Shown one piece after another: positions 24,798 through 30,558 of a DNA stretch of 64,000 bases. Position numbers and translations under genes: made by a program. Position 1 is the stretch's first letter. Each line of letters begins with the position of its first letter. The notes below the pieces were generated by a model. It was not told the DNA's origin. It ran no database searches and was given only the letters and a program-made list of their open reading frames with translations. The stretch covers positions 496,001 to 560,000 of the forward strand of contig JAGPNK010000016.1 of the NCBI GenBank assembly GCA_020746835.1, written 5' to 3'. Origin of the DNA: Stachybotrys elegans (Eukaryota; Ascomycota; Sordariomycetes; Hypocreales; Stachybotryaceae).

Positions 24798-26953
24798 ATG
24801 GCCTCTGTTCCGGCGCTGACGCCCGCGCAGACGCACGCGCTGCTCGACATCCTGACGCACAACCAGACGTACGCCGAGATCCAGGGCTTCCGCTCGCCAG
24901 GCGCCGTCACCTCCTACGGCTTCCCCTTTGCCCGGGCCACCGTCGTGCCCACCTCGTCGTCGAGCGCCGCGCCCAGCGTGCCCTCGACGCCCGCCGCCTC
25001 CGTCCCCGGCACCCCGCGCGCAAGGACACCCCTGCCGCCCGACGACGACGATGACGACGACGATGGTGGCGGCTCGACCTCGCCCCTCCTCCAGACGCTC
25101 CTCACGAGGGTCGTCCTCCGCCTCCCCGCCATACGGGACCTGCCGCGCGACTTCTGGTCCGTCCGCGTCCAGGGTCTGCTGGCTCGGCTGGGCGAGGCCA
25201 ATCTGTCCGAGAGCTACGACAAGGGCGCCCTTGGCACGCGTAAGACGCTGGCCACGGGCGCCAGCAGCGTCATCGAGATGGTGGCCCGCGGTGCCCTCTC
25301 CGGTGTCGCCAAGCAGGACCCGGATCCCGCCTCCCAGAGGCAGCAATACGACCACACCAAGGCCGAGGACCTCGAGAGGGCCTGGAACGACGTGGTGCAG
25401 GGCCTCGTGCATGGCCATCTCTGGGACGACATGTTTGCGCACTTGAGCAAAACCGAAGACCTGGAATCCTACTCTCCGGCCGTCAAAGCCGCCGCCGAAT
25501 ACGCCATCATCCAGTAAGTCATCCCCCCCTCCACCACATGCGGACAACGCACATTCACTAACACGAACAAAATAGCCTGGCGACGCTCGCCCACCACATC
25601 TTCGTCCTCTCCCCCGAGGGCCAGTATGTCCTCAAGTTGCTGGAGAACCTGCACGGCCTCGCGCCCTACAAGATGATCCGGCAGACGCTGCGCGTCGGCA
25701 ACGCCGCCACCATGATTAGTGGCATGGTGCGCCTCATGCTCGCCAAGATCAGCGTCACCAGCCTGACCAACTGGTTCGGCCTCACGCAGAACGCCGACGA
25801 CGGCATGAACCTCCTCCAGCGCATGATCTGGCTCGTCCTCTCCTGGGACGCCTCCGAGTTCAAGAAGAGCTCTGACCGCGTCGAGCGCGCCAAGGAGAGA
25901 CCCTCGGACGCCGTCCTCGCCGCCATCCGCGAGCACGTCTCCGACCCGCGGCCCGAACACGAAGCTGTCCGCGCCGCCAGCCGCGACAACTCCCAGTCCA
26001 TCATCGCCGCCATCCTCTACTCCGAGGACCCTGCCCTCGTCGCTACGCTCACCGAGTCCACCCACGCCCAGTGCCTCGAGTACTACTCCGCCCTCCTCTC
26101 CATCCGCGACCGCGAGGCCATCACCACCGCCCTCTGCCGCCAGCCCCCCGACCTCTTCACGCAGATGGTCCGCGATGCCGTCACCGCCTACGAGCCCATC
26201 ATCCGCATGGTCCATTCTCGCGTCGACCTGCGCGAGCACCTCGAAGCCACCCAGGGCTTCATCGACGAGTTCATCAAGACGAGCAAGCCGCAAAAAGCCG
26301 ACGGCGGCAGCTCTGACGCCGCGCCGCCTCCCACTGTTGAGGATTACATCGATCTGTTTATGCGGAACCGTGGCTTCATGTATAAGTGGCTCCACGCCCT
26401 GGGTAGCAAATGCCCCGACGTATGGGAACAGCTACGGCAGTGGACCAACGAGGTCATGGTCAAGTTCCGCAAGGGCTACCCCTCAGACAAGCCATCAGCC
26501 GCTACGGACACTATGCAGCAGCGCCTTAACGATCTCTTTGCCTCCCTCCCACCCACCGCCCAGGACACCGTTCTCTCCGCCATCAACGCTCACGAAACCT
26601 ACCTCTCCACCATCACGACCCTCTCCCGCACCCGTCTCCAGGCCCTTGCGAACCCAAAGGCATCGACCTCGCGCACCACCATGCACGGGCCGGGCGTCTA
26701 CCTCGCCCGCTGGCAGAACCTCCTTGATGATACGGCCATAACGCCCAGCACCCCTAAGGGAGCCGTGCGCCACGGCCGAGATGTCAAGAACACACTTTCC
26801 ATGGGCAAGACGGGCGTGGGAAGCACGACAGGCCCGGTGAAGGTGACTTCAGCGGAGGAGGAGCCTATCGCGCCAGATGTCAGCATCGTCGTCAAGGAGA
26901 TGGGACCAGGCTTTGTGCGGATTGTCCAAGAGATTGGTGGACCGGACTCATGA
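24798..26953 (+). CDS. PX-associated-domain protein (Ypr097w-like, DUF3818-type), two exons
   Basis: The exons are 24798-25513 and 25576-26953 (62-bp intron; GTAAGT...AATAG), giving 697 aa and joining EYAII to HLATLAHHIF. The start ATG sits in a strong GCCATGG context. The N-terminus (LTPAQTHALLDILTHNQTYAEIQGFRSP) resembles the PX-associated B domain of fungal lipid-binding proteins. A flexible Ser/Pro/Asp linker with eight Asp follows (about 80-92). From about residue 110 on, helical segments including LRVGNAATMISGMVRLMLAKI and LLQRMIWLVLSWDASEFKK resemble the DUF3818 region of yeast Ypr097w. I do not see a clear PX domain between them, unlike the long form of the family. The family is linked to membrane and lipid binding; the exact role is unknown. 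Confidence 0.6.
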
Positions 26954-27325: not shown

Positions 27326-27862
27326 TTAAAGGTTGCATTCCGCAGGGTATAGTCGTGTCGCACCCTTCTCGCCCTTTTCCACCACATGGCCAATGCATTC
27401 AAAGCCACCATCTGAACGTCCTTCATCAAGGTCGTCTCGTTTCACCACTGTGTGGCCAATACACTTGTAGTCACCATCCATGGCCTGGCTGCCGTTGCTT
27501 TTCTCAACAACCGTATGGCCTATACACTCGTATCTGCCATCCGAGGGTCTCTCAACTTTTGCGCCTCCCCTGGTGACGGCATGACCAATGCAGTCATAGT
27601 CAACATCCATGACCCGCGTGCCGCCCTTCTCTCCTTTGATGACTGTATGGCCTATACAGTCATAATTGCTCTTCATATCGTACTCATTGCCATCATCATC
27701 GGCCCTCACCACCGTATGGTCGATACAATTGTAGTCTCCCTCCAGTGTTTGCTGCTCAACTTCCTTACTACCTGCCACGGTATGGCCGATACAGTCGTAG
27801 GTGCTCCTCAAGGTCCGCGAATCTGCTTCGGGATCCTTGCTAACTGTATGATCAATGCATTC
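27326..27862 (-). other. In-frame 3' extension: eight-unit Cys/His repeat array beyond a TAG stop
   Basis: This 178-codon open frame directly follows the TAG of the HAM1-like gene, in the same frame, and ends with TAA at 27326-27328. It encodes eight copies of [Y/F]-[D/E/K/N]-C-I-[G/D]-H-[T/A/V]-V spaced 21-23 residues apart, with charged linkers. There is no in-frame ATG until the middle of the array (YDMKSNYD), after the third unit, so it lacks a start of its own and is best read as an extension of the upstream gene. Copies differ mainly at silent positions (Cys TGC/TGT; Ile ATC/ATA/ATT; Val GTG/GTC/GTT), which argues that the protein sequence is under selection. Possible routes to expression are UAG readthrough, A-to-I editing of UAG to UGG, or an unseen splice event. 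Confidence 0.7.
27380..27862 (-). repeat. Tandem CIGHTV repeat array (8 units, about 66-bp period)
   Basis: The units (core with its Tyr/Phe codon) lie at 27842-27865 (Tyr position occupied by TAG), 27776-27799, 27710-27733, 27641-27664, 27575-27598, 27509-27532, 27446-27469 and 27380-27403. Start-to-start distances are 66, 66, 69, 66, 66, 63 and 66 bp, always multiples of three. Linkers are Asp/Glu/Lys/Gly-rich and vary freely, while Cys, Ile and His of the core are invariant. One Cys and one His per unit suggest metal binding or an unusual solenoid, but no known family comes to mind. Confidence 0.85.
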
Positions 27863-30558
27863 CTAATAGGCGTTGAAGGTTCGGCCGTTGGCTCCAGGAA
27901 TATTCTCCTTGCCCTCGACAGGGTTGATGGCAGGAGCAAGAGTCGCATTGTTGACGCCGCCGTTGGTATAGGTGGCGGTGTGGCCATTGGTGTAACCATT
28001 AGTATGACCATTGGTGTGTCCATTGGTGTGGCCGTTGGTATGGCCGTTGGTCTCGTCCTTAATACCATGCGGCTTCTTCTCAATCTTGGGAGCGTGAGGA
28101 ACATCGCTGCTCCTGCTGGCATGACCGATGGAGAAGACGGGAGACTCCCACTTCTCACCCTTGCGTGCCAGTTCCTTGTACTCGCTGGCCTTGGTGCTGA
28201 TGCCACCAGGAAGGCTGATGTCGGGGAAAATGCTGTCTTCCTTGACCATGGCGACGTTGACCTTCTTGTCGGCGGCAACGGCCTGTGCCTTCTCCTTGTT
28301 CTGGAGCATGCGCTTCTGGAAGGCGTTGAAGTAGCGTCGGTAGATGTTGGGAGCTTGGTCAGGGCTGGCCTTTGCCTCATCCAGAGCACGATCAGCCTCC
28401 AGCTTGACCTGATAGAAGATACCGTCTAGCTGGTTGCACTGATCCTTGATAGCCTTCTCAACGGCCTTCTGAATGGGAGGGCGGAGGACCTTGAGCATGA
28501 TGGGCTTGAAGATACCAAAGAGCAACTTGTGGTTGGACTTGACGAGCTTGATGTTGAGATGCTTGACATCAACATCGACCTTCTCAACCTTGAAGTAGTT
28601 CTGACGGTCGTTCTTATCAGCGCTGGAAACCTTCATCTTGAAAGAGAATCCATCGCCGGGAAGAATGATGTCGGCGACACCAGTGTCCGTGAGGGAGGGG
28701 AAGCCAGTCTTGCGCTTGACGTGGTAGCTGATATCGCGAAGATCCATCTGGATGCCGGAAACCTTGACTTCGATGGTGTTCTTGTGCTTGTTGGCAATCT
28801 TCTTTCGACCCCATCGGAAGTAATGCTCGCTGGCGACTTCGGCAACGTTTGGCATAAAGTTGTCGCTCTCTAGAACGAGGTTCTCGATGATGGCGTCGAA
28901 CTGAGGGTCGGAATACTCAATGCGAGGGACAGGGATGTATGCCGCGTTTTCCATAATGGCCGGGATGATGACTTCCGTCACGTCCTTGATAAGGTGAGGC
29001 TTGAAGACAGGCTTGCCATTCTGGTCATTGCCGAGATCCTTGAACAGCTTCGTGATTGCGTGGGCAAATGCTGCGTTCTGAGGATCCTTGTCAAACTGGT
29101 CGGCAAGGAACTTGACCTCGTCAACCACGCGGTCGGTGTGGGTTCGGTACTTTTCACGGAGCAGATATCTGCCGTGGTCATACAGGCGGTCCCATTCCTG
29201 GCTGGACTCATCTTCCAGGATGTAGCCCTGCTCGAGGAGACTGCGGCGGATGTAGCGGTCGACGTTCTTGAACCAGTTCTTGAGCTCCTCGTCGTTGTCG
29301 GCGTCCTTGTAGATTTGGTCGATGGAAGCCCAGAGATCGGAAGTGGAGGTGCCGTTGGCAAAACGCTCAATCAGAGTGCGCAAGTCAGCCTCGGCGGCAG
29401 CAAGGCCAGTTCGAGCCTCCTTGGCCGAGCCGGCAGAACCCTGCGTAAGGTGACGACCATGCTTGCCGTAGTTCTCAGCCAGGCGCAACAGAGTCTCGAC
29501 GGCCTGCATGTAATCGGGGTGCTGCTGGCACTCGAGAATCATCTTCTTGAGACGGAAGATGATCTGCTCCTTGCGCTCCTGAGGCATCTTCTTGTTGAAG
29601 TACTCACGAGCCTTTGTGCGGTAAGCCTCGCTGAGCTCCTTGGCGTTGTTCTTAGTCTCGGGATCCAGACGATCTCCAAGCTTTTGGCTGGCGACATTGC
29701 GAGCTGCGCCCTGACCAGCGACCTGGTCAACCTGCTGAGGATCATTCGCGGTTGGGTCGTAGAGGTTGACATTGCCAGCATTGGCGCCAGCCTCAGCCAC
29801 ATCCTGTGCATCCTTCTTGGGGCTTCCGCCATACACTTCGCGGACCTGCTTCCTCAGGGTTTCCTTGGACAAATCGGGCTTCTCATGCCAAGTGTTGTCA
29901 TCAGCGGGACGGTCAACCTGCTGGAGCTGGTCTTCGGAGGGGCGAATCTTGGTGGCCGTGTTGACAGCGGCATCACCAGCCATGTCGCGGAGAAGAATGG
30001 TGGAGTCCTTGACTACATGGTTGTTAGAGAGGTTATGATTGCGGGGCGTGAATCGACTTACGCAGCTTGCGGAACTGGCCGTTGGTGATGAGCAGGGTGC
30101 CAAGCACTCTAAGGCCTTCGAGAGCCTCCTCACCATCACGCTGAGCCGTCTCCTTGTTGACGGGAGTGTTGGGAGTTGGGACGCTCTTGGGGTCGAAGTG
30201 GGTGGTTTGCCAGATGAAGTCCTGGAGCAGGTTGCCCTCGTTCTTGGAAAGAAGGAGGTTCTTGGCCTGCTTTACGACCTCCTTGACATCCTCAACAAGG
30301 ACCTTGCCCTCGCCCGAGAGCTTGTCGGAAGGCCGGGAGAGAGCACGGGAGTTGAGGAAGCTGTTGAGAGCGACATCGATTTGGTCGTTCTGAGGAACAG
30401 TTTAGCATGAATCAATCGAGGGAGGGGCGTGAGAGGAAGCCTACCGAAGGGACCTTGCCATTCTGGAAGGCGGTGAAAATGCCGTAGAGCTGGAGCTTGC
30501 GGTTGACATCGGCCTCCTTCTGCTCCTTGTTCACGGGTTTGTTGACGTTGGTGGACAT
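27863..30558 (-). CDS. HAM1-like / TULIP (BPI-fold) lipid-binding protein, three exons
   Basis: Exons in coding order are 30558-30445, 30389-30062 and 30012-27863 (introns of 55 and 49 bp), giving 863 aa up to a TAG at 27863-27865. The N-terminus (MSTNVNKPVNKEQKEADVNRK) and long helical region fit the HAM1-like N-terminal domain. The C-terminal half, with IPVPRIEYSDPQFDAIIENL, VLESDNFMPN, VSGIQMDLRDISYHVKRK and ADIILPGDGFSFKMKV, matches the fungal DUF4449/HAM1 C-terminal domain, often labelled 'bactericidal permeability-increasing alpha/beta domain'. Such TULIP folds bind lipids. The tail has an N-G-H-T tetrapeptide repeat and then NPVEGKENIPGANGRTFNAY before the stop. The same frame continues past the stop into eight repeats (27326-27862). 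If the TAG is decoded, the product would be 1042 aa with those repeats as its C-terminal domain. Confidence 0.8.
27968..28051 (-). repeat. N-G-H-T tetrapeptide repeat in the HAM1-like tail
   Basis: About six near-perfect 12-bp units encode Asn-Gly-His-Thr (one Asn-Gly-Tyr-Thr), at roughly residues 800-826 of the HAM1-like protein. They form a short low-complexity, His-rich linker shortly before the stop codon. The Gly-His-Thr triplet is also part of the core of the downstream repeat array. Confidence 0.85.

Follow-up and report, generated by a model that had tools for sequence, protein, structure and literature searches.

A UAG stop codon at a repeat position in a HAM1-like gene of Stachybotrys elegans, a candidate for stop-loss editing

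Stop-loss A-to-I RNA editing, by which a UAG stop codon becomes UGG, has been described in Sordariomycetes. For instance, white collar 1 of Sordaria gains an extension of 131 residues in this way, and there is peptide evidence in Sordaria for 15 transcripts with stop-loss editing (PMC6794485). In Fusarium graminearum, this type of editing is common, with 323 genes reported (PMC4817773), and in Fusarium hyphae UAG stops are edited rarely and at a low level, with extensions of 28 and 11 residues (PMC11169179). Here we describe a HAM1-like gene of Stachybotrys elegans in which the UAG stop occupies a position of a tandem protein repeat whose remaining units lie behind it in the same frame. The window, as we call the whole stretch of DNA that was analysed, comprises 64,000 nucleotides of contig JAGPNK010000016.1 (assembly GCA_020746835.1), and all positions are given in window coordinates. 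The features are as follows:

30445..30558, minus strand: exon 1 of the HAM1-like gene, with the ATG at 30558-30556
30444-30390, minus strand: intron 1, GTAGGC...CAG
30062..30389, minus strand: exon 2
30061-30013, minus strand: intron 2, GTAAGT...TAG
27863..30012, minus strand: last exon up to and including the TAG stop, encoding HAM1_N (in part) and HAM1_C
27977..28051, minus strand: low-complexity NGHTNG tail of HAM1 before the stop, a coding tandem repeat (period 12/36, 82% matches)
27863..27865, minus strand: TAG stop in place of the aromatic residue of repeat unit 1, with the putative edited A at 27864 in the context TT-A-GGAA
27842..27865, minus strand: core of repeat unit 1, (TAG)ECIDHTV
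27380..27799, minus strand: repeat units 2-8
27326..27862, minus strand: downstream extension of 178 codons, open to a TAA at 27328-27326, with the homolog P0002

Exons 1 and 2 were read by hand. The splice point after exon 1 was set by continuity with P0004, a homologous protein (MSTNVNKP...KVPS|NDQ), which is contiguous across both introns. Two Pfam domains score above the cut-off, HAM1_N (PF19343, E=3e-188) and HAM1_C (PF14613, E=4e-69), and the body of the gene is an ordinary member of this family. The initial annotation spoke of a lipid-binding protein, a label whose basis is only some homolog names (e.g., "Bactericidal permeability-increasing protein" among the HAM1 homologs listed) and a sub-threshold Pfam match (JHBP). 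No title among the papers listed in a literature search on HAM1-like proteins (PF14613) dealt with the fungal family. DNA similar to the NGHTNG tail occurs elsewhere in the genome (C18:244015-244197 and C12:185281-185347; L002-L005). A convergent neighbour on the plus strand (25562-26953) encodes DUF3818 (PF12825), a domain of PX proteins, and about 370 bases separate its stop from the end of the repeat extension.

The minus strand around the stop reads ...ACC TTC AAC GCC TAT TAG GAA TGC ATT GAT CAT ACA GTT..., so it can be read directly, as had been claimed, that the HAM1-like gene ends in NAY-TAG and that its frame continues at once into ECIDHTV. A run of 178 open codons has a probability of about 0.0004 if stop triplets are as frequent as in the extension itself and of 0.005-0.006 if they are as frequent as in the whole window, genes included; in dinucleotide shuffles of the extension, the frame was never open (0/5000). 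The open length by itself is weak evidence; the repeats are decisive. G+C at codon positions 1, 2 and 3 is 0.59, 0.41 and 0.54 in the extension and 0.59, 0.36 and 0.71 in HAM1, and the third-position G+C of the 372 bases past the extension is 0.36-0.41. We read the flatter profile of the extension as that of a coding sequence with weaker codon bias, as expected if it is rarely translated.

The eight units share the consensus (Y/F)-x-C-I-x-H-(T/A/V)-V, the cores of units 2-8 being YDCIGHTV, YNCIDHTV, YDCIGHTV, YDCIGHAV, YECIGHTV, YKCIGHTV and FECIGHVV. The residue preceding x-Cys is, just as the initial annotation had it, the TAG in unit 1, Tyr in the next six units and Phe in the last. The units start at 27865 (the TAG), 27799, 27733, 27664, 27598, 27532, 27469 and 27403, which gives spacings of 22, 22, 23, 22, 22, 21 and 22 codons; the aromatic residue of unit 2 follows the TAG by exactly one unit, 22 codons, so that the stop is itself in register with the repeat. 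In 217 codon comparisons over the cores, the units differ 24 times at codon position 1, 25 times at position 2 and 130 times at position 3. By the Nei-Gojobori method, pS among the unit cores is 0.80 and pN is 0.13 in the HAM1 frame, and therefore selection acts on the repeat protein. The ratio in this frame is 0.16; in the remaining frames, it is 2.66 and 1.04 (sense) and 1.43, 0.32 and 1.99 (antisense). Such a pattern is that of an old array maintained by protein-level selection. At this locus, Tandem Repeats Finder reported the NGHTNG stretch only and not the eight-unit array, and when the repeat was searched for across the genome (43.4 Mb, 61 contigs), this locus alone matched.

A search with the 178 residues of the extension against 5.8 billion proteins (E<=1e-3) returned a single match among 108 candidates, P0002, a protein of 149 aa (E 1e-53) that is 64% identical to the extension, without gaps, across 146 residues and up to the last residue. 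It is listed as a separate protein starting with Met. The corresponding search with the HAM1 tail gave 1333 matches, of which the best 120 were examined. The top match, P0004, shows 91% identity across 717 aligned positions, and the best named homologs among the matches listed come from Sarocladium strictum and Stachybotrys chartarum. A comparison of the stop position with related species had been suggested; in this one relative, P0004 ends at the same residue, ...GANSRTLNTY, as the protein of the window, ...GANGRTFNAY. P0002 and P0004 are probably encoded on one contig, because both entries give a longest contig of 3458 nt, a value found nowhere else among the matches listed; a HAM1 frame followed by P0002 fits by size into this length. 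Furthermore, P0004 is unbroken across both intron positions of the window gene. If the gene calls in its protein collection are unspliced, as we presume, the 3458-nt contig would therefore be a spliced transcript, which suggests that the stop is still carried after splicing. The stop at this place and the repeats downstream of it are very probably common to the two species, the relative being read at the level of its proteins. Given the end of P0004 and the ungapped homolog P0002, a recent nonsense mutation or a sequencing error is unlikely. Identity between the two species is 93/149 in the extension, 588/639 in the HAM1 core and 60/72 in the HAM1 tail.

In these searches the extension was seen in two species only. 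At E up to 10 (366 candidates), no protein of fused size had a repeat tail that matched, and none of the 120 examined of the 1333 HAM1 homologs contains the repeat motif. Pattern matches to the relatives' HAM1 DNA in viral and in bacterial or archaeal contigs were not confirmed (0/54 and 0/110, respectively). Close HAM1 homologs end in RTLNTY, GTMNAY and RTLGTY, in a set in which most rows were picked for ending in Tyr. Among the 120 examined homologs, in which related species are over-represented, the last residue is Tyr in 36 and Ile in 46, so that 82/120 end in one or the other, often as VTI, SGY or NAY-like sequences. Such ends are perhaps a C-terminal docking signal, and the free C-terminus of HAM1 looks functional. 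Because the free C-termini of relatives are alike and no tail of a fused-size protein was found, the stop looks old; probably, judging from these sequences, the repeats begin behind it. The same two observations speak against the idea that the TAG is a former Tyr codon of a fused protein.

How, then, could the extension be translated? Its first in-frame ATG (27676, residue 63) comes only after units 1 and 2 and the core of unit 3, and translation must therefore pass through the stop or begin at a non-ATG codon. We consider it highly likely that the extension is translated as part of HAM1 through some form of bypass. The best explanation of this bypass appears to be stop-loss editing to Trp, to which we assign a probability of roughly 0.6, editing as the route, its stage and its level all being inferred. 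The canonical stop of HAM1 is UAG, as stop-loss editing sites require. In F. graminearum, editing prefers C/U at -2, U at -1, A/G at +1, G at +2 and A/G at +3 and +4 (PMC9600606), and the sequence at the stop, UUAGGAA, agrees with this preference at each of the six positions (U at -2, U at -1, G at +1, G at +2, A at +3 and A at +4), a property that it shares with 11 other TAGs in the window (12/850 in total). The predicted fraction of structures in which the A lies in a hairpin loop varies with the flanks: it is 0.79, 0.78, 0.27 and 0.21 with 15, 20, 25 and 30 nt, and 0.06, 0.05, 0.04, 0.75 and 0.77 with 40, 50, 75, 100 and 200 nt. Flanks of 30 nt are the size used in the literature; when 300 other TAGs from the window were sampled and folded at this size, the mean was 0.31 and the median 0.10, against 0.21 at the HAM1 stop. 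The picture from hairpins is mixed. Sites with all six preferred bases have been reported to lie in hairpins less often than editing sites generally (PMC9600606).

The means for editing are probably present as well. Tad2 and Tad3 are essential tRNA enzymes (PMC11156358), and the MV pair of Ame1 (residues 500-501) is essential for editing (PMC11087585). The genome has three DUF726 loci (L008, L009 and L010), and L010 carries MV, S, D and H at the exact spacing of Ame1 residues 500-501, 531, 589 and 629, while at the MV position L008 has AQ and L009 has SL. By its sequence, L010 is thus an Ame1-type cofactor gene. The nucleophile elbow reads GYSLA in L010 and GYSVG and GYSLG in L008 and L009. 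As a positive control for editing, a PUK1-like in-frame TAG was sought, and none was identified: the genome gave 136 kinase matches, of which 3 loci (2 on the wrong strand) and 11 of 12 fetched stretches (all but L053) were read, and by eye the stops in the kinase stretches seem intronic or fall at or near the edge of the match. A search of the genome for the mating-type alpha box was empty, and so were its controls.

We propose that the HAM1-like gene would give rise to two proteins. By the usual route, translation would stop at the UAG and yield HAM1 ending in Tyr. At some point in the life cycle, most likely during sexual development, a Tad2-Tad3-Ame1 deaminase would edit a fraction of the transcripts at the A of position 27864, and the resulting UGG (Trp) would supply the aromatic residue missing from repeat unit 1. 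The edited product would carry a 179-residue domain of eight repeat units fused to HAM1. A more far-reaching possibility, to which we would give even odds, is that the stop is a built-in part of the repeat, the domain having evolved behind the HAM1 stop, with editing writing the aromatic residue of unit 1 and making the fusion stage-specific. The initial annotation's view of a regulated bypass is supported in part: the frame continues, the repeats are selected, the HAM1 of the relative ends alike, the context is ideal for editing and the genome has an Ame1-type cofactor gene. What finds no support is a former Tyr codon of a fused protein.

Other routes have to be weighed against editing. Ribosomal readthrough, in which the UAG would be decoded rarely by a near-cognate tRNA (Tyr or Gln) and a little extended HAM1 would be made in all stages, fits the frame, the selection and the position of the stop equally, and insertion of Tyr would even provide the commonest residue at that repeat position. 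The sequence 3' of the stop, GAATGC, is nevertheless unlike the leaky motifs UAG-CARYYA and UGA-CUA, and the folding of four stretches around the stop was no better than that of shuffles (z-scores 0.35 to 1.51), so that we regard readthrough as unlikely, if the foremost of the alternatives. Alternative splicing, in which the TAG would be spliced out and the repeats joined to HAM1, is very improbable. There are 27 GT-AG pairs of 40-250 nt that preserve the frame, the TAG lies within CCTATTAG, an acceptable 3' splice site, and the genuine intron 1 of HAM1 likewise has a weak donor, GTAGGC. Among the best 25 of these 27 pairs by donor match, however, no more than 2/4 donor positions beyond the GT agree, and those that have a branch motif leave little or nothing of the unit 1 core; in the pair whose acceptor is the TAG itself, the donor is GTCAAC and there is no branch motif. 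Moreover, the stop is retained at this place in the apparently spliced contig of the relative.

In the relative, the repeats have a protein entry to themselves that starts with Met (P0002), as would be the case if a separate repeat protein were made from the same mRNA by an internal start or from a promoter within HAM1. We find this improbable, since the first in-frame ATG of the window is residue 63, yet the earlier units 1 and 2 and the core of unit 3 are equally intact, and the stop stands exactly one unit period ahead of unit 2, a spacing for which a separate gene would have no need. It is also hard to see the extension as a relic, that is, a once-fused tail severed by a nonsense mutation, or as an assembly error, and we think this as improbable as splicing: the homolog of the repeats is open and ungapped for 146 residues, the HAM1 of the second species stops at the very same residue, and similar free C-termini are seen in the HAM1 proteins of other fungi, even though the TAG is one base away from TAT, TAC or TGG and the extension is less conserved between the two species than the HAM1 core or tail. 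There is, finally, very little chance that the repeats are non-coding elements of RNA or DNA in the 3' UTR, such as UGUA-type protein-binding sites. TGTA is found in 5/8 unit cores, but in units 1, 5 and 8 TGCATT breaks the UGUA and retains Cys-Ile, and the changes are concentrated at third codon positions.

A Cys-x-x-His pair is present in each unit of the repeat domain, and the unit cores are mostly strands in a low-confidence structure model (mean pLDDT 51.7, two sequences); the other four models reached 26-30, and that of HAM1 had a mean pLDDT of 35.9. Our guess is that the domain may be a beta-rich module for binding or one that binds metal. In Pfam, the extension matched LAL_C2 and SOGP_4th under the cut-off, and these matches were taken as chance, as was its best match in the PDB (E 0.18).

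If the proposal is true, this would be a stop-loss event with sequence evidence for a selected long form. A selected repeat domain behind a UAG whose context is ideal for editing would directly test whether such extensions are adaptive. It would make clear, too, that a whole domain can be missed by gene models that end at UAG in fungi of this kind. In the titles and abstract openings of the literature on fungal stop-loss and readthrough extensions, we found nothing on this gene, but the comparison with described systems is instructive. Like functional readthrough of fungal metabolic enzymes, the locus has a C-terminal extension past a stop; unlike them, with their short UGA context (PMC4207609), it has UAG-GAA and, as judged by eye from its C-terminal ECNL, no peroxisomal-type end. 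It differs from other HAM1-like proteins (PF19343, PF14613), given that the repeat motif is absent from the 120 examined of 1333 homologs. With the correction of premature stops in PUK1, CHE1 and AMD1 of F. graminearum, it shares a UAG inside one conserved frame, but in those genes the unedited product is truncated, whereas the unedited HAM1 product is complete (PMC4817773, PMC11169179). With Sordaria white collar 1, it shares a canonical UAG, a long open extension, a Sordariomycete host and the preferred UAG context (PMC6794485); in contrast to that gene, editing of HAM1 is predicted, the extension is a selected eight-unit repeat and the stop lies at a repeat position. The predicted event belongs to a known kind, and what is unusual about it is the strength of the sequence evidence for a selected long form, together with a stop that is itself a residue of the repeat.
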